A DNA stretch of 9,425 nt from CBDUXP01 sp965371225 [NCBI: uncultured bacterium] (GTDB taxonomy: Bacteria; Abyssobacteria; SURF-5; CBDUXP01). This document shows positions 89 to 9,425 of this stretch, piece by piece. Position 1 is the stretch's first letter; each line of letters opens with the position of its first letter. Under the pieces are notes generated by a model that was given only the letters and a program-made list of their open reading frames with translations, was not told the DNA's origin and made no database searches. The translations under genes and the position numbers were made by a program. Location: NCBI GenBank assembly GCA_965371225.1, contig CBDUXP010000101.1:1-9425 (forward strand), in the 5' to 3' direction.

Positions 89-979
89 CTACGGGTAGAA
101 GGAGTCGATGATGGATTCGACGGAGCGCGGGCTGCCACTCTGGGCGAGGGCGCGCACGTCGGCCAAGCGGGCGCCGTACGTGGGGCATTGCTCGCGGTAG
201 ATGACCCCGACATTGATCGTGTCCGTGTCGCGGGCGAGCGCCACCGCCGCGTCCATGTCCGTGGGATCGTGATTCTCGTCCAGGTACCGCAACCGGGCCT
301 TCTGGGCTTCCACCCCTTGCTTGCCGTCGCGGAAGGTGGTGCACGGGCTGATGCTGTGCACGAACGCAAAGCCGTCGTGCTCGATCGCCTGGCGCACGAT
401 ATCCGCATGGTGTTTCGCATCCATGGCGAAGGCGCGCGCGACGAACGTGGCCCCGTAGCTCAACAGTTGGAGCACCGGGTTGATGGGCCGTTCAATGTGC
501 CCATAGATGGTGGACTTCGTTTCGTCGCCCACCGGCGTCGTGGGCGAGGCCTGCCCCTTGGTCAGCCCGTAGATTTCGTTATCCATCACGATGTAGGCGA
601 TATCCACGTTGCGGCGCGCCACGTGCGGCAAGTGCCCGGCGCCGATGGAAAAGCCGTCCCCGTCGCCGCCCACGGCCAGCACGGTCAGCTCGGGCCGCGC
701 CAGCTTCAGGCCCGAGGCGATGGGGATCGCGCGGCCGTGGACCGCATTGAACCCGTACGTGCTCACGTAGCCGGGCAGCCGGCTGCTGCACCCGATGCCG
801 GAGATGACGGCCACCTGGCTGGGGTCCAGCTGGAGCTGGGCGAAGGCCATGTACAGGGAGGAGAGCACCCCGAAGTCCCCGCAGCCGGGGCACCAGATGT
901 TCTCGAACGCCCCTTTGTAATCCTTGGGTTTCCGTTGAGGTTGGTCAATGGTGACCGTGGCGGTCGCGCACTCAGCCAT
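89..979 (-). CDS. korB: 2-oxoacid:ferredoxin oxidoreductase, beta subunit (KorB-like)
   Basis: This 296-residue protein is the thiamine pyrophosphate (TPP) and Fe-S subunit of a 2-oxoacid:ferredoxin oxidoreductase. With KorA it interconverts a 2-oxoacid plus CoA with acyl-CoA plus CO2, using ferredoxin, in the cytoplasm. WCPGCGDFG lies at residues 29-37. Cys30, Cys33, Cys64 (GIGCSSR) and Cys213 (SPCTTF) match the four ligands of the single [4Fe-4S] cluster in two-subunit enzymes. GDGDGFSIG at 105-113 and MDNEIYGLTKGQ at 132-143 form the TPP/Mg motif. The start at 979 is chosen over an upstream in-frame ATG at 1009 because AGGAGG stands nine bases before it. The start overlaps the korA stop by 8 bp (ATGGCTGA), so the two are probably translationally coupled. 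The 2-oxoglutarate preference is inferred from overall likeness to KorB; pyruvate or a broad-range enzyme cannot be excluded. The family call is very secure, the substrate moderately so. Confidence 0.95.
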   Translation of the reverse strand: MAECATATVTIDQPQRKPKDYKGAFENIWCPGCGDFGVLSSLYMAFAQLQLDPSQVAVISGIGCSSRLPGYVSTYGFNAVHGRAIPIASGLKLARPELTVLAVGGDGDGFSIGAGHLPHVARRNVDIAYIVMDNEIYGLTKGQASPTTPVGDETKSTIYGHIERPINPVLQLLSYGATFVARAFAMDAKHHADIVRQAIEHDGFAFVHSISPCTTFRDGKQGVEAQKARLRYLDENHDPTDMDAAVALARDTDTINVGVIYREQCPTYGARLADVRALAQSGSPRSVESIIDSFYP

Positions 980-2735
980 GGACAGTCGCCTCCTGAGCGA
1001 CGAAGTCATAGACTTCCCGAAAGCCGAACGGTTTCCCGCCGCTGCGTGCGTACGAGATTGTGTTGGCCGGTAGGTTCAATTCCGCGCGCAGATATCGGTA
1101 GAACTGCGCACCGTAGGACAATTCCAAGATGATGAGTTGGTCCACGCTATCCACGAAATCCTGGAGCTTCTCTCTGGGCACCGGATTGAGGACTTGCGGA
1201 ACGCACACGGCGATGTTCAGGCCGTCCTGGGCACCGATTTCCAGGACCTTCTTCATGACGCCTTTGGTGGACCCCCAGCCGAGCAGGCCGATGGTCGCCC
1301 GTTCGGGGCCGTAGCGCCGCACGAAGTTGTATTCCTTGCCGATCGCGGCCAGCTTCGCGTAGCGCTTGGCGTTCTGCTGCGTGTGGACCGTGTAGGACGC
1401 GGTCGGGGCCCCGGCCTCGGTGTGCTCGATCCCGGCCGTGATGAATTGCCCGCCCGGGGTCCCCGGCACCGCGGCGGGGGACACGCCCGAATCCGTTATC
1501 TTGAAGCGTTGGTATCCCTGCAGGTCCGCCTCGGTCGGCCGCTGTCCCTGGAGAATCTTGGAGTCGGTGGGATCGAACCGCCGGACGCACTCCCGCCGCT
1601 GGCCGATGAATTGGTCGGAGAGCACGATGACGGGGACCTGATAACAGTCGGCGATGTTGAACGCGTCCACCGCGACCTGGAAGCAATCTTCCGCATCCGC
1701 GGGGGCGAGGACTACGCGCGGCGCGTCGCCGCTCGCGCCGTACAGCGCCTGGTTGAGGTCGGCCTGCTCCGTCTTGGTGGGAATCCCGGTGCTCGGGCCG
1801 CACCGTTGAACGTTCAGGACCACGCAGCCCACTTCGCTGGTCCAGGCCAGCCCGAGCATTTCGTTCATTAGGGAGACGCCGGGTCCGGAGGTCGCGGTCA
1901 TCGCCCGCACACCGCCGAAGGAGGCACCGAGCACCATCCCGATGGCGGCCATCTCGTCCTCGGCCTGGACGAGCGTCCCGTCGAATTCCGGCAGATGGGT
2001 GTGCATCCAGTGGAGCACTTCGGAGGAGGGGGTGATCGGGTACCCGGCGTAGAAGCGGCACCCGGCATAGAGCGCGCCGAAGGCAAACGCTTCGTTGCCC
2101 TCCATCACCAGCCGGGGGGCATGCCCTTCCTCGTAGGTGAATTCGATGGGATCGGCCTTGGTGAGATGCTCGCGCACCCACTGCGCGCCGACGTCCACCG
2201 CTTTGAGGTTGCTGTCGATCACCGCCTGCTTCTTCCGTTGAAACTTCTGTTCGATGGCGCGATTGAGGCCCTTGGTCGGCAAGCCGAAGAGTTCGCACAG
2301 GGCGCCAAGCATGACGATGTTCTTGGCCAAGCTCGTGCCCACCTCCTTGACGGCCAGGTTCTTGAACGGGATGCCGTAGTGATACGCGCGGTGCTCCCGG
2401 AACGGGAGCTGGTCCGGATTGATGCCCTTGTCCCCCGTGTCGTACAGGACGACGCACCCTTCCTTCGGGATCATCTCGTCGTGAAACTTCATCATCTCCC
2501 GCATGTCGAGCGCCACTAGCACGTCGATCTCATCACCCTGCATCAAGACGACTTGGTCGCTGATGCGCAAGCGAATCGACGATTCCCCGCCGCGAATCTG
2601 CGCCCCAAAACTCTTCAGCAGCATGCAGAAGAGGCCTTCGTTCGCCGCGGCCGCCGTGAGCAAATCGCCCGCACTGACGACGCCGTCTCCGCCACTGCCA
2701 GCGATACCAATATTGATGTCTCGATACAACGTCAT
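972..2735 (-). CDS. korA: 2-oxoacid:ferredoxin oxidoreductase, fused gamma-alpha subunit (KorA-like)
   Basis: This 587-residue partner of KorB is a fusion of the gamma and alpha parts of the oxidoreductase, the usual form in two-subunit enzymes. Residues 1 to about 185 are the gamma domain, opening with IGIAGSGGDGVVSAGDLL and containing GAQIRGGESS at 44-53. Residues from about 205 are the alpha domain. YPITPSSE at 232-239 is the hallmark 2-oxoacid-binding/TPP-contact motif. RCGPSTGIPTKTEQADLNQA at 311-330 is the conserved substrate-side loop, and its KTEQADL form is typical of proteins annotated as 2-oxoglutarate enzymes. The start ATG has GGAGAGG seven bases upstream (2743-2749). No delta (ferredoxin-like) subunit or ferredoxin gene is seen in the window, so a separate ferredoxin must be the partner. 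Likely roles are an oxidative TCA bypass or reductive carboxylation of succinyl-CoA in a reverse TCA cycle; the sequence cannot choose between them. It is first in the operon, with a long leader that may be regulated. Confidence 0.95.
   Translation of the reverse strand: MTLYRDINIGIAGSGGDGVVSAGDLLTAAAANEGLFCMLLKSFGAQIRGGESSIRLRISDQVVLMQGDEIDVLVALDMREMMKFHDEMIPKEGCVVLYDTGDKGINPDQLPFREHRAYHYGIPFKNLAVKEVGTSLAKNIVMLGALCELFGLPTKGLNRAIEQKFQRKKQAVIDSNLKAVDVGAQWVREHLTKADPIEFTYEEGHAPRLVMEGNEAFAFGALYAGCRFYAGYPITPSSEVLHWMHTHLPEFDGTLVQAEDEMAAIGMVLGASFGGVRAMTATSGPGVSLMNEMLGLAWTSEVGCVVLNVQRCGPSTGIPTKTEQADLNQALYGASGDAPRVVLAPADAEDCFQVAVDAFNIADCYQVPVIVLSDQFIGQRRECVRRFDPTDSKILQGQRPTEADLQGYQRFKITDSGVSPAAVPGTPGGQFITAGIEHTEAGAPTASYTVHTQQNAKRYAKLAAIGKEYNFVRRYGPERATIGLLGWGSTKGVMKKVLEIGAQDGLNIAVCVPQVLNPVPREKLQDFVDSVDQLIILELSYGAQFYRYLRAELNLPANTISYARSGGKPFGFREVYDFVAQEATVHG
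989..994 (-). promoter_or_regulatory. Ribosome binding site deciding the korB start
   Basis: The minus strand reads AGGAGG here, nine bases before the ATG at 979-977. It lies inside the 3' end of korA. It favours this start over the longer frame opening at 1009, which would add ten residues that have no counterpart in the family. Confidence 0.85.
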
Positions 2736-3269: not shown

Positions 3270-4415
3270 ATGTCTGAGGCCTACATAATTGACGCCGTGC
3301 GCACCCCCCGGGGCAAACGCGGGGGCTCCTTCGCCCATACCCATCCCGTGAACTTGGCGGTGACCGCGCTGAACGCCCTGCCCGAACGCACGGGGCTGGA
3401 CCCGGCGGAAATCGACGACGTGGTAATGGGCTGCGTGACCCAAACCGGGGAGCAAGGCCTGGACATCGGCCGGGCCTCCGTCCTGGCGGCCGGCTGGCCG
3501 ATCCAGGTGGCCGGCGTGGCGCTCAACCGCTTTTGCGGCTCCGGCCAACAGGCGGTGAACTTTGCCGCCCAGGGCATCATGAGCGGCATGCAGGACGTCG
3601 TCGTCGGCGCCGGAGTCGAGAACATGACCCGCGTGCCCATGGGCAGCGACTTCGGCCCCATGAGCGACCTGATGACGGCGAACTACCCGGACCTGGTGCC
3701 CCAGGGCGTCAGCGCCGAAATGATCGTCGACAAGTGGGGGTACACGCGCGAGCAGGTGGACGGGTTTGCGCTCGAGAGTCAGAAACGTGCCGCCCGCGCC
3801 TGGGAGGAGGGTCGCTTCGCCAAAAGCATTCTTCCCACCCCGGCGAAAAATGAGGATGGCTCGGAATTCACGGTCACGAAGGACGAGCACTTCCGGCCGG
3901 GAACGACCACGGAAGCGCTGGCTGGCTTGAAGACGATCTTCAAGCCCGATGGGGTTATCACGGCCGGCAACAGTTCGGGGATCGTCGACGGCGCGGCCGC
4001 CGTGCTGCTCGCTAGCGGCGAGGCCGTGGAGCGGCTAGGCCTGAAGCCGCGCGCGAAAATTCGCGCTATGGCCGTGGTCGGCTCGGAGCCGAAGATCATG
4101 CTCACCGGCCCCATTCCCGCGGTCGCGAAAGTGCTCAAGAAATCGGGGATGAGTATTAATGACATCGACCTTATCGAGATCAACGAGGCGTTCGCGCCCG
4201 TGCCCCTGTGCGTCATGCAGGAGTGCGACATGGATCACGACAAGGTCAACGTCAACGGTGGCGCCATCGCGCTCGGCCACCCGCTGGGCGCGACGGGTTC
4301 CATGCTGGTCGGGACCCTGCTGGACGAGCTGGAGCGCACGGACCAGACCACCGGGCTGGTCACCATGTGCATCGGCTTCGGTATGGGCATCGCCACCGTC
4401 ATCGAACGCGTCTAA
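3270..4415 (+). CDS. Thiolase, acetyl-CoA acetyltransferase type
   Basis: This 381-residue enzyme joins two acetyl-CoA to acetoacetyl-CoA, or cleaves 3-ketoacyl-CoA in the reverse direction. The whole thiolase fold is present. The acyl-accepting Cys89 sits in [10 protein letters not shown], Asn305 in INEAFAP, His337 in [15 protein letters not shown], and the second active-site cysteine Cys367 in CIGFGMG. This spacing resembles the well-studied Zoogloea enzyme, whose nucleophile is also Cys89. AEM-type segments and [17 protein letters not shown] (233-249) are typical. The start has AAAGGA nine bases upstream. One small oddity is Phe370 in CIGFGMG, where Gly or Val is common. The gene stands alone, divergent from korAB and convergent with the mod operon, so whether it serves fatty-acid oxidation, ketone or polyhydroxyalkanoate metabolism, or biosynthesis is not shown. 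The exact chain-length preference is open. Confidence 0.95.
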
Positions 4416-4507: not shown

Positions 4508-5572
4508 CTACGACAAGGGGTCCAGGCTCGTGGTCTTCAGGTTGACCCACGTCTCCGCCCCGACCCCGAGGCCCAGCTCCCGCAGCGCCCGGGCCAGCAC
4601 CAGCGCCCGCAGGCGTTCGTGGCCAATCTCCAACTCGACGATCACGGCGGTGCCCAGCGGCCGGAGCGCGCCGATATGTGCCCGCAGGTGATTCCGCGCG
4701 GACTGCTGCGCCGGCTCCCGGAGGCTGAGCACCAGGCTGTTCGCGTAGCACCCGTACGCGGCTTCGCTGCCCGGCGCCGGCGGGGCCGGAACGATGAGGC
4801 GATGTCCCCCCCAGTCCAGTTCCGCCAGGCCCGCATCCTCCGGCACCGGGCGGGTGGGGCCGCGCAGCAAATTGTCCACGTCGTGCGCGAGGCCCATGGG
4901 GTTTGTCGCGTGCGCCGCCAAGCACTCCAGCGGATTGCCCTGCGCCGCAACCGCGCCCTCCTCCAGCACGATCACTTCATCCGCGGCAAGCGCCAAGTCC
5001 GCCCCCCGATGGCTCACCAGCACCCAGGGCACGCCAAAGCGCCGGTGCACGCGGTCGAGCAGTGCCAGCGCCGTGCGCCGATTGTGCGTGTCGAGCCCGG
5101 TGAACGGCTCGTCCAGCAGCAGCAATTCCGGTGCGCTCAGCAGCGCGCGCCCCAGGGCCACCCGGTGCTGTTCACCGCCCGACAGGCTCCGCGGCATCCG
5201 CCCGAGCAGCGGCCGGAGGTTCAGAGCGTCCGTCACCTCGGTGAAGTGGTTGGACGCCGCCGCGCCCGCCGGGCTGTACCGCAGGTTCTGCTCCACCGTG
5301 CAATGGGGAAAGAGCAACGGGTCCTGCGTCATGTACCCCACGCGCCGGCGTTGCATGGGGGTGAAGGTGGCGCTGTCCGTGTCCTGCCACAGGCCCTCGC
5401 CGTGCGCCAGGCGCGCCTCCCGCGGCCGCAGGTCCCCCGCGATGCAGCGCAGCAGGCTCGACTTGCCCGAGCCGCTCGGCCCGAACACCCCCAGCCGCGG
5501 CGCGGTGGTCTCCACGTCCACGTCCAACGCGAACCGGGGGCTCAGCCGGTGGCGAACGCGAAGCCGGAGCAT
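4508..5572 (-). CDS. modC: Molybdate ABC transporter, ATP-binding protein with C-terminal Mop domain
   Basis: This 354-residue ATPase powers molybdate import through ModB at the inner face of the membrane. Visible motifs: Walker A GPSGSGKSS at 31-39; Q-loop Gln83 in MTQDPLLFPH; signature LSGGEQHRVAL at 130-140; Walker B LLLLDEP at 150-156 with catalytic Glu155; D-loop GLD at 159-161; and switch His188 in LVSHRG. Residues about 290-354 (from SARNHLRAHIGAL) resemble a single molybdate-binding Mop/TOBE domain, as in typical ModC (family usually about 350). The start at 5572 is set by GGGAGGA upstream and by the modB stop two bases away. The same frame stays open another 201 codons upstream, but that part lies over modB and is not translated ModC. 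The signature has GEQHRVALGRAL where GEQQRVALARAL is more usual, a conservative change. It is last in modEABC and probably coupled to modB. Confidence 0.93.
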   Translation of the reverse strand: MLRLRVRHRLSPRFALDVDVETTAPRLGVFGPSGSGKSSLLRCIAGDLRPREARLAHGEGLWQDTDSATFTPMQRRRVGYMTQDPLLFPHCTVEQNLRYSPAGAAASNHFTEVTDALNLRPLLGRMPRSLSGGEQHRVALGRALLSAPELLLLDEPFTGLDTHNRRTALALLDRVHRRFGVPWVLVSHRGADLALAADEVIVLEEGAVAAQGNPLECLAAHATNPMGLAHDVDNLLRGPTRPVPEDAGLAELDWGGHRLIVPAPPAPGSEAAYGCYANSLVLSLREPAQQSARNHLRAHIGALRPLGTAVIVELEIGHERLRALVLARALRELGLGVGAETWVNLKTTSLDPLS

Positions 5573-5574
5573 CG

Positions 5575-6270
5575 CTACGAATCCTCCCACTCGATGCGCG
5601 TCCGATGCCGCCGGTTCAGGGCCTCGTACCCCCCGAGGACCGCCGCGGCGACGGCCACCGCGATCATGGAAAGCAGGAACGCGAGGCGCTCGCCGCCGGG
5701 GGCTTCCAATGCGCGAAAAATGGTCAGGGCGATGGTGTTCGTCTCGCCCGGCACGTACCCCGCCAGCGTGATCGTGGCGCCGAACTCGCCCAGGCTGCGC
5801 GCGAACGCCAGCAACACGCCGGCCAGGATGCCCGGACGCGCCAGGGGGAACGTGACGCGCCAGAAGCCCGCCCACCCGGAACGGCCCAGGCTCAGGCTCA
5901 GGCGTTCGTACCGCGGGTCCACCGCCTCGACGCTGTGGCGAATCTGCTGCACGAGCAGGGGGAACCCCACCACCCCCGCGGCGACCACCGCCCCGGTCCA
6001 GCCGAACGCCACCCGCAGGCCGAACACATCGAGCAGGACGGCGCCGAGCCACCCGCGCGGCGAGAAGAACACCAGCAGTAGATAACCCGTGACCACCGGT
6101 GGCAGGACCAGCGGCAGCATCACCAGCATCTGCACGAGGCCTCGGCCGCGGAACGAGCGCCGCGCCAGCAGCCACCCCAGGTAGAGGCCGGGGGGAAGGG
6201 TCAGCAGCACGCTGGCGCAGGCCACCGAGACGGAGAGGCCGACGGCCTGGAGGACGGGCGCGTGTTCCAT
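5575..6270 (-). CDS. modB: Molybdate ABC transporter, permease
   Basis: This 231-residue inner-membrane permease forms the molybdate channel with ModC. Hydrophobic spans are visible at about 10-36, 45-69, 91-110, 147-170 and 195-216. The cytoplasmic EAA-type loop that docks on the ATPase is YERLSLSLGRSGWAGFWRVT with FPLARPGI following (121-148). SLGEFGATITLAG at 159-171 is strongly typical of ModB and related oxyanion permeases. The length is normal for the family (about 225-230). It starts four bases after the modA stop (three bases between) and ends two bases before the modC start. Its own ribosome site is weak (GGCCTGAG), so translation probably depends on modA. Tungstate or sulfate permeases are close relatives, but the linked ModA and ModE favour molybdate. 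Confidence 0.93.
   Translation of the reverse strand: MEHAPVLQAVGLSVSVACASVLLTLPPGLYLGWLLARRSFRGRGLVQMLVMLPLVLPPVVTGYLLLVFFSPRGWLGAVLLDVFGLRVAFGWTGAVVAAGVVGFPLLVQQIRHSVEAVDPRYERLSLSLGRSGWAGFWRVTFPLARPGILAGVLLAFARSLGEFGATITLAGYVPGETNTIALTIFRALEAPGGERLAFLLSMIAVAVAAAVLGGYEALNRRHRTRIEWEDS
5582..5588 (-). promoter_or_regulatory. Ribosome binding site deciding the modC start
   Basis: The minus strand reads GGGAGGA, nine bases before the modC ATG at 5572. It lies within the last codons of modB. It excludes the much longer open frame that extends to 6175. Confidence 0.8.
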
Positions 6271-6273
6271 GAC

Positions 6274-7047
6274 TCAGGCCGGCGCGAACCCGTGCGCCTC
6301 GATGATGGGGCGCGCCGCGGCGCCCCGCAGGTAGGCGAGGACGCGTATCCCCGCCGCCGCGACTTCGCCCCGCGCGAGCACCGCGGCCGGATAGATGATG
6401 GGGGCATGGAGGCGCGCGTCAATGGTGAACGCCACGCGCACGCGCGGTTCGGCCCGGGCGTCCGTGCGGTACACGATGCCGGCCGGGACGCCCCCCAGCG
6501 CCACCTTGGCCAGCGTGTCCCGGGCATTGCGCCCTTCGATGAGGCGGGCAGGGAGGGCCACGCCGCCGCCGGCCAAGGCCTCGCGCGCGTACGCACCCAC
6601 CGGCACGCTGGCCGCCGCCAGGGCGAGCGCAGTCGGCTGCGGCCCAGCCAAGGCCGGCAGGTCCGGCGGCACCCAGGCGGCATCCGCCGGGACGATGCAC
6701 ACCAGGGCATTGCGCAGCCAGTCGCACGACGTTCCCTCGCCGCCGGCGATGAGACCCGCGTCGGCGACCGTCGCCATCCACCTGGTGTCCGCGCTGATAT
6801 AGAGGTGGGCCGGTGCGCCGTGCAGGATTTGCCGCGCCAAGGTCCCGCTCGACGCCGTGGTCAGCACCACTGGGTGGCCGCCCGCCGCCTCCATGCCCAG
6901 GCGCAGGTCCTCCAGAAGATCCACGAGGCTGGCCGCGGCGTACACGCGCAGGGGTTCTCCCGTCGCACCGGGCACCGTGGGACCCGCCTGACATCCGAAC
7001 GCGAGTGTCAACGCACCGAGCAGGAGAGGCCACCGGCTACGTCGCAT
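6274..7047 (-). CDS. modA: Molybdate-binding protein, probable lipoprotein
   Basis: This 257-residue extracytoplasmic protein captures molybdate (or tungstate) and delivers it to ModB. MRRSRW starts a signal peptide with hydrophobic core PLLLGALTLAF, followed by Cys19 in AFGCQAG. That would be a lipobox with an unusual Phe before Gly, suggesting a membrane-anchored lipoprotein. The mature part shows family landmarks: LRVYAAASL at 33-41, TTASSGTLARQI at 63-74, GAPAHLYISADTRWM at 77-91, SVPVGAYAREAL at 147-158 and GIVYRTDA at 190-197. The start at 7047 has GGAGGGA seven bases upstream. The longer frame from 7146 would place 33 arginine- and tryptophan-rich residues before the signal peptide and is rejected. 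It overlaps the end of modE by 11 bp. Confidence 0.92.
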   Translation of the reverse strand: MRRSRWPLLLGALTLAFGCQAGPTVPGATGEPLRVYAAASLVDLLEDLRLGMEAAGGHPVVLTTASSGTLARQILHGAPAHLYISADTRWMATVADAGLIAGGEGTSCDWLRNALVCIVPADAAWVPPDLPALAGPQPTALALAAASVPVGAYAREALAGGGVALPARLIEGRNARDTLAKVALGGVPAGIVYRTDARAEPRVRVAFTIDARLHAPIIYPAAVLARGEVAAAGIRVLAYLRGAAARPIIEAHGFAPA

Positions 7048-7465
7048 GGGTCTGTCCCTCCGCCTCGGGTGCCACATGGATGCCCGGCGGCACCATAGCC
7101 GCCAACAGGTTGTCCAGCTCCCGCTCCGCGCGCCGGAATTGGGCAATGGCTTGCGCTCCCGCCGGGGTCAGGTGGCTCCCGCCGCCGCCGCGGCCCCCCG
7201 TCGCCCGTTCCACGAGCAGGGTGGGCGCCAAGCGGTTCATTTGCTGGACCAAGTCCCACGCATGCCGGTAGCCCATGCCCATCGAGCGGGCGGCGGCGGC
7301 GATGGATCCCCGATCGCGGATGCGCTCCAGCAGCGAAACACGCCCCATCCCCAGATACGTTTCGGCGCCGCGCTCGACCCAGAGGCGCGCCACGGCCCTG
7401 GGCGCGGCCGGCGCCTGGGCCGGCGCTCCTGGGGGAGCATGCGGATATGGATTCGGCTGCGCCAT
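7037..7465 (-). CDS. modE: ModE-family regulator consisting of the DNA-binding domain only
   Basis: This 142-residue protein carries the LysR-like winged helix-turn-helix of ModE, the molybdate-responsive repressor/activator. Residues 1-22 are a Pro/Ala-rich tail. Residues about 27-78 read as the family core: LWVERGAETYLGMGRVSLLE, then RDRGSIAAAARSMGMGYRHAWDLVQQMN. The wing follows as GGRGGGGSHLTPAG at 90-103. The rest is a short helix and tail. Classical ModE (about 260 residues in E. coli) has two C-terminal Mop domains that bind molybdate; here they are absent. The gene is first in the operon and overlaps modA by 11 bp. An inverted repeat matching the ModE operator lies 10-35 bases upstream of its start, so autoregulation of modEABC is likely. 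The start has only a weak ribosome site. How it senses molybdate is not evident from the protein itself. Confidence 0.88.
   Translation of the reverse strand: MAQPNPYPHAPPGAPAQAPAAPRAVARLWVERGAETYLGMGRVSLLERIRDRGSIAAAARSMGMGYRHAWDLVQQMNRLAPTLLVERATGGRGGGGSHLTPAGAQAIAQFRRAERELDNLLAAMVPPGIHVAPEAEGQTHAT
7055..7061 (-). promoter_or_regulatory. Ribosome binding site deciding the modA start
   Basis: GGAGGGA on the minus strand stands seven bases before the ATG at 7047, inside the modE coding sequence. It supports the start that places a signal peptide at the N terminus. Confidence 0.8.
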
Positions 7466-7877: not shown

Positions 7878-7979
7878 ATGCCCCCGCCGGTCCGAGTGAT
7901 CGGCGGGCCACGCGCCATGTGTGTGTGCCTGGGGAGAGCCCCGTGCATCGATGACCTTCGCGCGGCTGCGGTCGCTTGA
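7878..7979 (+). CDS. Possible 33-residue leader ORF, unproven
   Basis: An ATG frame of 33 codons ends in TGA three bases before the 28-bp palindrome. AGGAG lies upstream but only three bases from the ATG, closer than usual. The peptide contains a cysteine cluster, MCVCLGRAPC at residues 14-23, and a second in-frame ATG at 7917. I recognise no family. It could be a leader peptide read before the following redox gene, or simply a chance frame in GC-rich DNA; the short length makes chance quite likely. Confidence 0.2.
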   Translation: MPPPVRVIGGPRAMCVCLGRAPCIDDLRAAAVA

Positions 7980-7981
7980 GG

Positions 7982-8009
7982 GGCGCAGGTTGCGCGCGCA
8001 ACCTGCGCC
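7982..8009. repeat. Perfect 28-bp palindrome before the NuoF-GltD start
   Basis: The 14-base arm GGCGCAGGTTGCGC (7982-7995) is followed without a spacer by its exact reverse complement (7996-8009). It ends 17 bases before the ATG at 8027. As DNA it could be an operator for a dimeric protein; as RNA it would fold into a very stable hairpin beside the translation start. No T-run follows, so termination is less likely. Confidence 0.75.
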
Positions 8010-8026
8010 GGAGTACATCACGAGCC

Positions 8027-9425
8027 ATGGCGGACATTCTCCTGGACACTTGGTACACGGACCCTGCGGGCCCGGAATCGGATAACGGCGCGGCCATTCC
8101 GAAGGCGCACGCCCAGTACTTCGACCAGCATCGCGACGCCCCCTCCGTCAAAGCCATTGTGGGGTGGGGCGGCATCGTCAATACGGATCCGAATCTGAAG
8201 GTCGTGCCGCTGATGAAGTCGTACTTCGACCAGATTTGGCGGAACAGTTGCGGGAAATGCGTCCCCTGCCGGGTCGGCACGCGCGTGATCTACGACACGA
8301 TCAGCGACATCAATGACGGGACGTGCACGCGCGAGCGGTTCGACCAAATGCTCGAGCTGTCCGAAGACATCGGCTCGGACTGCAAGTGCAGCTACGGGAC
8401 CGCGTTCCAAAAACCGCTCGCGGATGCAGTGGCGCACTACCGCGGGCAGTGGGACGCCGCGCTGAACGGCGAGAGCCAGGGCAGCGAGCCGGAGTATTCG
8501 TGGTTCATGACCGCACCCTGCAACCACGGCTGCCCGGCCAATACGGACGCGGCGCGCTACATCGAACTGATCACCGAAGAGAAGCATTTCGAGGCGGCGG
8601 AGGTCGCCTACGAGCCGGATACGTTCGCGACCACCATGGGCCGGGCGTGCTTCCACCCGTGCGAGGACCTGTGCAAGCGCAAGGACGTGGAGCAGCCCAT
8701 CGCCATCTCGCAACTGAAGCGCTTCGCGACCGACTACCAACACAAGATGCGCGCGGAGGGGCAGATCGGCGAGCAGGTGTACGTCTCGAAGCGGACGAAG
8801 GGCAAGGTGGCGTGCATCGGCGCGGGGCCCGCGTCCGTGCAGTGCGCCAAAGACCTGCTCGACATGGATTACGACGTGACCATTTTCGAGGCGGCCCCCG
8901 TGGTGGGCGGCGTGGCGCACCTGGGCATTCCGGCCTACCGGCTGCCGCGCGACCTCGTCGTGGAAGAGATCACGAACGTGGAGCGCCAGGGCGCCCGGGT
9001 GGTGGTCAACTCCTATTTCGGTACGGACGTCACGTGGCCGGCCCTGGAACAGCAGGGCTTCGACGCCATCATGCTCGGCTTCGGCTGCTTCCGCGGGAAG
9101 AAGATGCGCGTGCCGAACGAGGACGCCACGTACGTGATGGACGCGATCGACTACCTCTATAACATTGCGCTCCACCGGCCGCTCCCGAAACCGATCGAGG
9201 AGATCAACCGGGTCGTGGTGGTCGGCGGCGGGAACACCGCCATCGACGCCGCGCGCAGCGCGCGCCACCTGGGGGTGGAGGACGTGGTGCTCGTCTACCG
9301 CCGCGGGCGGGAGCAGATGCCCTGCGCGTGGTGGGAAGTGGACGAGGGCCTGGAAGAGGGCGTGACCTTCGAGTTCCTCGTGTCGCCGACCAAGATCGTG
9401 GTCAACGACAAGAACGAAGCGGTCG
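8027..9425 (+). CDS. NuoF-type 4Fe-4S domain fused to GltD-like FAD/NAD(P) oxidoreductase, 3' end beyond window
   Basis: The frame is open for 466 codons from ATG to the window edge without a stop. Residues 1 to about 65 are unassigned. NSCGKCVPCRVGT at 73-85 with Cys75, Cys78 and Cys81, plus Cys119 or Cys121 in SDCKCSYG, matches the 4Fe-4S region at the C-terminal end of NADH dehydrogenase subunit NuoF; the NuoF FMN/NADH-binding fold is absent. APCNHGCPANTDAARYIELI (163-182) and GRACFHPCEDLC (205-216), then LKRF, match the N-terminal Fe-S domain shared by glutamate synthase small subunit and dihydropyrimidine dehydrogenase. GAGPAS at 265-270 is the FAD site and LGIPAYRLPRDLV at 299-311 is typical of GltD. 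GGGNTAIDAARSARHLG at 400-416 is the NAD(P)H site. It probably passes electrons between NAD(P)H and an Fe-S partner. No glutamate synthase large subunit is seen, so a true GltD role is not supported. The start is chosen because upstream in-frame sequence offers only a TTG before a stop at 7952. Confidence 0.88.
   Translation, partial: MADILLDTWYTDPAGPESDNGAAIPKAHAQYFDQHRDAPSVKAIVGWGGIVNTDPNLKVVPLMKSYFDQIWRNSCGKCVPCRVGTRVIYDTISDINDGTCTRERFDQMLELSEDIGSDCKCSYGTAFQKPLADAVAHYRGQWDAALNGESQGSEPEYSWFMTAPCNHGCPANTDAARYIELITEEKHFEAAEVAYEPDTFATTMGRACFHPCEDLCKRKDVEQPIAISQLKRFATDYQHKMRAEGQIGEQVYVSKRTKGKVACIGAGPASVQCAKDLLDMDYDVTIFEAAPVVGGVAHLGIPAYRLPRDLVVEEITNVERQGARVVVNSYFGTDVTWPALEQQGFDAIMLGFGCFRGKKMRVPNEDATYVMDAIDYLYNIALHRPLPKPIEEINRVVVVGGGNTAIDAARSARHLGVEDVVLVYRRGREQMPCAWWEVDEGLEEGVTFEFLVSPTKIVVNDKNEAV

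Follow-up and report, generated by a model that had tools for sequence, protein, structure and literature searches.

A divergent flavoprotein of the FdhB/SfrB kind beside molybdate transport genes, probably the beta subunit of a formate dehydrogenase

The right edge of the DNA analysed here (the window, 9,425 nt) cuts through a gene for a flavoprotein in which an iron–sulfur domain of the NuoF type is joined to a GltD-like oxidoreductase. The question raised by this locus is which enzyme the protein serves. Its frame is open from ATG 8027 to the last full codon at 9424 and runs off the contig (Table 1), and an in-frame TTG lies upstream at 7976. GC by codon position is 0.63/0.42/0.90, as in the other genes of the window, so that the frame without a stop described by the original prediction is real and well coded. 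The 416-residue antisense frame that it reported over the gene is also present, with GC by codon position of 0.89/0.44/0.62; because this mirrors the pattern of the flavoprotein frame, it is judged a shadow. The flavoprotein gene and the divergent modE-like gene, which ends at 7465, are 561 nt apart, too little room for an FMN fold upstream of ATG 8027. By its domains and ligand residues, the protein is a subunit of the FdhB/SfrB kind, truncated by the window edge.

Table 1. Features of the window
Feature	Positions	Strand	Remarks
KorB, 2-oxoacid oxidoreductase	89-1009	-	domain search
KorA (fused), 2-oxoacid oxidoreductase	972-2735	-	domain search
Thiolase	3270-4415	+	domain search
ModC, molybdate transporter ATPase	4508..5560	-	TIGR02142 273 bits (cut-off 285)
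ModB, molybdate permease	5575..6270	-	passes curated NCBIfam cut-off
ModA, molybdate-binding protein	6274..7146	-	passes curated NCBIfam cut-off; start more likely at an ATG near 7047
ModE-like molybdate regulator, HTH part only	7037..7465	-	TIGR00637 90 bits (cut-off 98.5); transcribed away from the flavoprotein gene
Perfect 28-nt palindrome	7982..8009	.	its end lies 17 nt from the start codon; candidate operator
Antisense frame, 416 aa	8018..9268	-	shadow, not a gene, judged by codon-position GC
FdhB/SfrB-type NAD(P)H iron–sulfur flavoprotein subunit	8027..9425	+	466 residues in the window; no stop before the right edge
NuoF-type 4Fe-4S domain (Pfam NADH_4Fe-4S)	8213..8455	+	residues 63-143, E 3e-17; ligands Cys75/78/81/121
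Fer4_20 domain	8510..8749	+	residues 162-241, E 2e-15; five Cys (165, 169, 208, 212, 216) and Lys231 at the StnC K170 position
GltD-like FAD and NADP(H) domain (Pyr_redox_2)	8804..9412	+	residues 260-462, E 2e-15; cut by the window edge

Domains and cofactor sites of the flavoprotein

The protein consists of a NuoF-type 4Fe-4S domain, a Fer4_20 domain and a GltD-like FAD/NADP(H) domain, in this order. This set of Pfam domains (NADH_4Fe-4S, Fer4_20 and Pyr_redox_2) in one chain without Complex1_51K marks membership of the FdhB/SfrB family. Neither Complex1_51K, which is the FMN fold and the mark of NuoF of complex I, nor SLBB is reported by Pfam in the window protein. The original prediction had seen this NuoF iron–sulfur part without its FMN fold, the second iron–sulfur domain and the FAD and NAD(P) sites, all of which are found, and had left the fourth NuoF-type ligand as Cys119 or Cys121. 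The alignment settles it as Cys121: Cys75, Cys78 and Cys121 are cysteines in all 75 aligned relatives and Cys81 in 68 of them, and by this conservation the four form the NuoF-type cluster. The five cysteines of the Fer4_20 domain are each conserved in 75/75 relatives. The FAD motif reads GAGPAS (residues 265–270), in which Ser270 replaces the third glycine, a glycine in 75 of 75 relatives. The second dinucleotide motif, GGGNTA (400–405), and a YRR motif (424–426) correspond in the alignment to the GxGxxA and YRR of NADPH-binding NfnL, and this comparison favours NADP(H) as the putative nucleotide.

Lys231, a lysine in 74 of the 75 relatives, aligns with K170 of StnC, which is described as an unusual ligand of the FAD-proximal cluster (PMC10482914). 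The bifurcating NfnB has a glutamate at this position according to the same source, and this NfnB/NfnL-type glutamate ligand is absent from the window protein. A non-bifurcating shuttle is therefore more likely, because the lysine is that of StnC and not the glutamate of NfnB.

One of the two clusters of the Fer4_20 region would be incomplete in the part of the protein that can be read. PCxxxCP is found in 67 of the 68 sequences checked, and none of these 67 has a CxxC in the preceding 25 residues. All 77 short-form relatives (defined below) carry [RK]CxxC within their last 45 residues, the StnC-like protein L001 has RCxxC behind its GltD domain, too, and the unfused GltD-like proteins L003, L005 and L109 have a CxxC only later than PCxxxCP. 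From this we infer that the C-terminal CxxC tail completes the second cluster of the Fer4_20 region. The tail of the window protein, expected as EAxRCLRC about 170–200 residues past the edge, would supply the missing CxxC.

The AlphaFold model of the window protein (mean pLDDT of 78.8) is confident from about residue 60, with pLDDT under 50 for residues 1–53 and 153–162. Its best matches in the PDB are NfnABC, NfnL and StnC. StnC and NfnA of the Stn and NfnABC transhydrogenases share with it the GltD-like domain and the FAD and NADP(H) sites, and StnC also the lysine at the FAD-proximal cluster, but these enzymes carry the GltD domain in fusion with a NuoG-like domain, and the FMN subunit StnB is a separate chain. 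The likeness to NuoF of complex I is limited to the 4Fe-4S domain; NuoF has an FMN fold and SLBB, which are not reported here. GltD, the small subunit of glutamate synthase, shares the Fer4_20 domain and the FAD/NAD(P) fold, but the window protein carries a NuoF domain in front, falls far under the NCBIfam cut-offs for GltD (223 of 472 bits for TIGR01316 and 169 of 483 for TIGR01318, scores that truncation lowers) and is not accompanied by gltB. Its best NCBIfam match is PRK12771 (271 bits, cut-off 516, again with a score lowered by truncation).

A divergent branch of a known family

A profile of two sequences found at least 80 loci in genome contigs, and the fused relatives come in two forms. 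In the long form (about 1000 aa), a NuoF that retains the FMN fold is joined to GltD; one such protein by Pfam, L012 of Moorella thermoacetica, stands before an [FeFe] hydrogenase. The short form (about 610–730 aa) has only the NuoF 4Fe-4S domain plus GltD. With the first 150 residues of the window protein, short forms are the top 22 of 198 matches (several being one gene fetched twice, and L155 a partial frame). The best of them scores 86.7 bits, a modest margin over the 69.4 bits of the best NuoF-like protein, L075, and Moorella FdhB is not among the best 40 matches listed. These N-terminal residues are nearer to short forms than to NuoF, HydB or the long forms. A recent fusion with another GltD was considered for the window protein and set aside as rather improbable: since the N-terminal part prefers short forms, a separate fusion is not needed. 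The C-terminal part has as its best matches two 565-aa HdrA/GltD-like proteins (L139 and L140, 43%).

The architecture itself is not new: it is that of the known and widespread FdhB/SfrB subunits, which include the beta subunit of the Moorella NADP-formate dehydrogenase and proteins put forward as partners of [FeFe] hydrogenases. What the window protein adds, as far as its alignments tell, is a divergent new sequence. Among the matches listed, the highest identity is 41% over the fused architecture (G1084) and 44% over the GltD part (G679). Samples from eight phyla hold no closer relative (best E of 4e-97 at 40% over the whole length, among the matches listed), and a search of genome and viral contigs with exact peptide patterns confirmed no close relative. 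KorA of the window is similarly distant, with at most 40% identity among the matches listed in 200 Pseudomonadota genomes (51 with E up to 1e-100) and 43%, over a partial match, in one Eisenbacteria genome among 29 genomes. This distance suggests that the source lineage has not been sampled. In a tree of 76 rows, the window protein has the longest end branch (1.98). A weak, unstarred branch (93/37) joins it to a group of 48 rows that holds Moorella FdhB and the short forms embedded in nuo clusters, and a starred branch (96/94) keeps it outside this FdhB/SfrB core. No partner class is indicated by the tree. A sister position to the 48-row group describes the window protein best, with the caution that its long branch demands.

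The closest known counterpart in design is FdhB of Moorella thermoacetica (L097), which has the same domain order and cysteines, a similar short N-terminal segment and no FMN fold. The two proteins are about 36% identical (alignment A2), and FdhB differs by an insertion of about 40 columns before Fer4_20. The Moorella short form (L097, L124) lies beside the start of an FdhA-like gene (Fer2_4, Molybdop_Fe4S4); architecture, length and this neighbour identify L097 as the putative beta subunit of the NADP-formate dehydrogenase. According to PMC5736913, Moorella FdhB contains 4Fe-4S, ferredoxin-type and NADP-binding domains, and the beta subunit of NADP-formate dehydrogenase is given as the product of sfrB2 (PMC13040438).

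Short forms from seven loci (L190, L192, L195, L198, L204, L211 and L212) lack the third NuoF-type cysteine (e.g. YCGxCxPG), and in these the NuoF-type cluster may be altered or lost. The first five have SfrA-like partners and a glycine in place of this cysteine, which the window protein retains; they are suspected to be SfrB proper, of the Geobacter type. Geobacter SfrB, a subunit of an NADPH oxidoreductase, has the short-form architecture. It is cited as a relative of such proteins (PMC7483475, PMC3543383), and StnC has been compared with SfrB (PMC7483475).

Partner genes of the short forms

Partners were assigned for 77 short-form loci. The largest group is 43 loci found in 158 sampled genomes of the phylum to which Desulfacinum infernum belongs (Desulfobacterota in GTDB). 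The others are five single loci, two from a Chloroflexota sample, 12 from samples of Bacillota, Nitrospirota, Eisenbacteria and Planctomycetota, and 15 of Bacillota or Actinomycetota from the first scan or a plasmid collection. The 43 Desulfobacterota loci were picked by hand among the matches listed as open frames of ~640–735 aa in which the match starts before residue 45. They exclude partial frames in G671 and G730, the longer frames of G705 (829 aa) and G726 C165 (756 aa), two further frames (G695 C270, 726 aa; G671 C401, 786 aa), unlisted matches and, separately, G911 (598 aa). Dropped before the count of 77 were L213 (807 aa), L214 (715 aa, from an Acidobacteriota sample), the long form L215 and four loci at contig ends (L015, L049, L061, L071); of these, L213 and L214 would class with FdhA and L015 with HydA.

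In 64 of the 77 loci, the next gene on the same strand encodes a protein with a NuoG-type N-terminal 2Fe-2S domain. The partner is FdhA in 20 of them, an SfrA-like protein in 22, [FeFe] HydA in 17, and the domain alone or a cut gene in five; these classes are set by bit-score thresholds, and L169 and L173 moved from SfrA-like to FdhA by threshold alone. Pfam analysis of eight neighbour proteins found Fer2_4 in all seven partners, one of them a 235-aa ferredoxin-like protein behind porAB in L211, and NADH-G_4Fe-4S_3 in six of the seven; the eighth protein is FdhD. The motif [HN]CAR[LV][UC]H, mostly with selenocysteine, occurs in 17/20 FdhA loci, 4/22 SfrA-like loci and 0/17 HydA loci, in a scan of whole loci that in L173 and the Nitrospirota loci may have caught the motif of an FdhA on the other side. 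The survey of gene neighbours, proposed as a check by the original prediction, thus finds an adjacent molybdenum or iron–sulfur partner subunit in most homologues. Its reading of the protein as an electron-transfer hub, possibly the NAD(P)H module of a larger complex, is well supported by the relatives. As for observations it named as contrary, the window holds no large subunit of glutamate synthase, and stand-alone homologues are a minority.

The 13 loci with no adjacent partner bear on the possibility that the window protein works alone as an NADPH:acceptor oxidoreductase, e.g. as a ferredoxin or flavodoxin reductase. One of them is L123 (Pseudomonadota sample), which belongs to the nearer sequences (35.6% identity to the window protein) and for which about 10 kb of downstream sequence shows no recognised partner. 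In three others (L168, L170, L180), however, the nuo cluster that holds the short form also carries FdhA, upstream of nuoA, and in L209 the contig stops 87 nt past the gene. A stand-alone role of the window protein is rated very improbable. The L123 short form (10376-12346, minus strand; motif SCGQCLPCPVG) lies behind an ABC permease/ATPase pair that is ZnuBC-like by eye. In L188 and L197, the short form has no NuoG-type partner and lies upstream of etfBA-like genes and a gene for a membrane FeS protein (names partly by eye), with an HdrA-like gene about 6 kb upstream in L197. In L185 and L200, the short form lies amid genes of methyltransferase or corrinoid type, named by eye from sequence starts.

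A hydrogenase partner is suggested by the HydA genes directly downstream in 17/77 relatives and by the starred tree set that includes the window protein, which has 14 HydA rows among 28. The enzyme would be an NADP(H)-linked hydrogenase, as proposed for HndD1 of Pelobacter carbinolicus (Pcar_2502/2503), for which an SfrB-like partner has been put forward (PMC3543383). Because none of the 17 HydA loci has modAB nearby while the window gene adjoins modABC-modE, this pairing is regarded as very improbable.

The genes for KorAB at the other end of the window raise a further option, in which the flavoprotein is the NAD(P)+ reductase of this 2-oxoacid oxidoreductase. Aromatoleum and Methylovirgula do have GltD-like proteins next to KorAB or NifJ, and in L211 and L212 a short form comes directly after PorAB. 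KorAB, however, is encoded on the opposite strand at a distance of about 5.3 kb, the thiolase gene and the mod operon lie in between, and the GltD-like proteins of L003 and L005 have no NuoF domain, so this assignment has very little to commend it. The clusters of L211 (6888-12544) and L212 (5169-10514) consist of porA- and porB-like genes, the short form and a NuoG-type ferredoxin of 235–240 aa, and could each encode a pyruvate:NADP+ oxidoreductase.

In 23 of the 43 Desulfobacterota loci (L168-L174, L176, L177, L179-L183, L186, L187, L189, L194, L199, L201, L207, L208, L210), the short form sits inside a nuo cluster, on one strand and in the place of NuoEF. L209, in which nuoA-D is followed by the short form and the contig end, is left out of this number. 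The order is nuoA-B-C-D-short form-(FdhA or SfrA-like)-nuoH-I-L in 19 of the 23; nuoH lies directly behind the short form in L168, L170, L174 and L180. Searched by tblastn, none of the 23 stretches contains the NuoF FMN domain or NuoE, queries that match 63 and 58 of 87 control loci, respectively, and one other short-form locus (L247). This arrangement points to a candidate complex I that takes its electrons from NADPH or formate. No description of such an operon was found among the open PMC papers listed. The nuo genes of sulfate reducers are treated without a short-form subunit in the relevant passages of PMC4046663 and PMC5109826.

Molybdate transport genes and the probable formate dehydrogenase

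Upstream of the flavoprotein gene and divergent from it, the window carries modABC-modE, which is not co-transcribed with it. When modAB was sought with the proteins of the window (E up to 1e-8, stretches of about 5 to 21 kb), six of the 42 loci with an FdhA or SfrA-like partner had it close to the short form, against none of the other 35 (Fisher p 0.03, which overstates independence, the six loci being two lineages, four from the Nitrospirota sample and two Lachnospiraceae). The mod genes and FdhA share a cluster in all six: in L056 the order is modA-modB-modC-short form-FdhA, and in L243 it is FdhA-short form-SfrA-like-FdhD with modB, modA and modC further on. Mainly because the window repeats this pairing, FdhA is expected shortly after position 9425, and the window protein is probably the beta subunit of a soluble, NAD(P)-linked molybdenum formate dehydrogenase.

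A related reading places beside it an SfrA/NuoG-like molybdopterin protein that is not a formate dehydrogenase, or makes the pair an input module of complex I, so that electrons of NADPH would pass to a cytoplasmic acceptor or to quinone. SfrA-like partners occur in 22 of the 77 relatives, more than half of the Desulfobacterota loci (23/43) lie inside nuo clusters, and the best whole-length matches of the window protein (L168, L169 and L170) are nuo-embedded. All 23 nuo-embedded loci, however, have nuoA-B-C-D upstream on the same strand, whereas the window has mod genes upstream on the other strand, and a partner without catalysis at molybdenum would account less well for the mod genes. This reading is considered unlikely.

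If the window protein belongs to a formate dehydrogenase, its presumed partner, nucleotide, cluster types and direction of electron flow would combine into the following reversible path. Formate would be oxidised at the molybdenum in FdhA, and the electrons would enter the NuoF-type 4Fe-4S cluster (Cys75/78/81/121) by way of the N-terminal, NuoG-type clusters of FdhA. From there they would move on to the pair of 4Fe-4S clusters in the Fer4_20 region, one of which would have three cysteines and Lys231 as ligands, and continue to FAD and finally to NADP+. The NuoF remnant would act as a docking plug for the NuoG-type domain and not as an NADH site.

The palindrome in front of the flavoprotein gene is a possible operator. 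Its exact sequence is absent from the 250 fetched loci, and a search of the window for its 18-nt core, allowing up to 3 mismatches, found only the one copy. An RNA hairpin at this site was considered and rejected, the fold of 81 nt being not exceptional (z -1.29), and the window has no Rfam matches and no tRNA.

A wider proposal, tentative and on balance doubtful, is that the short form is a general plug, whose NuoF remnant would dock on any enzyme with a NuoG-type N-terminal 2Fe-2S domain and thereby let formate dehydrogenases, hydrogenases, pyruvate oxidoreductases and even complex I use NADP(H). It would replace NuoEF in many nuo operons of Desulfobacterota, giving a proton-pumping quinone reductase fed by NADPH or formate, and the window protein would be a deep separate branch with an unseen partner. 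What donates electrons to a complex I lacking NuoEFG is a question left open in PMC11238625, and the Desulfobacterota loci bear on it. Across the family, one shared docking domain seems to govern which partner is used, a rule that can be tested. The window protein brings a divergent sequence (at most 41% identity over the fused architecture, among the matches listed) into a family of which a member has been studied enzymatically, and the window ties molybdate uptake to a likely formate dehydrogenase.
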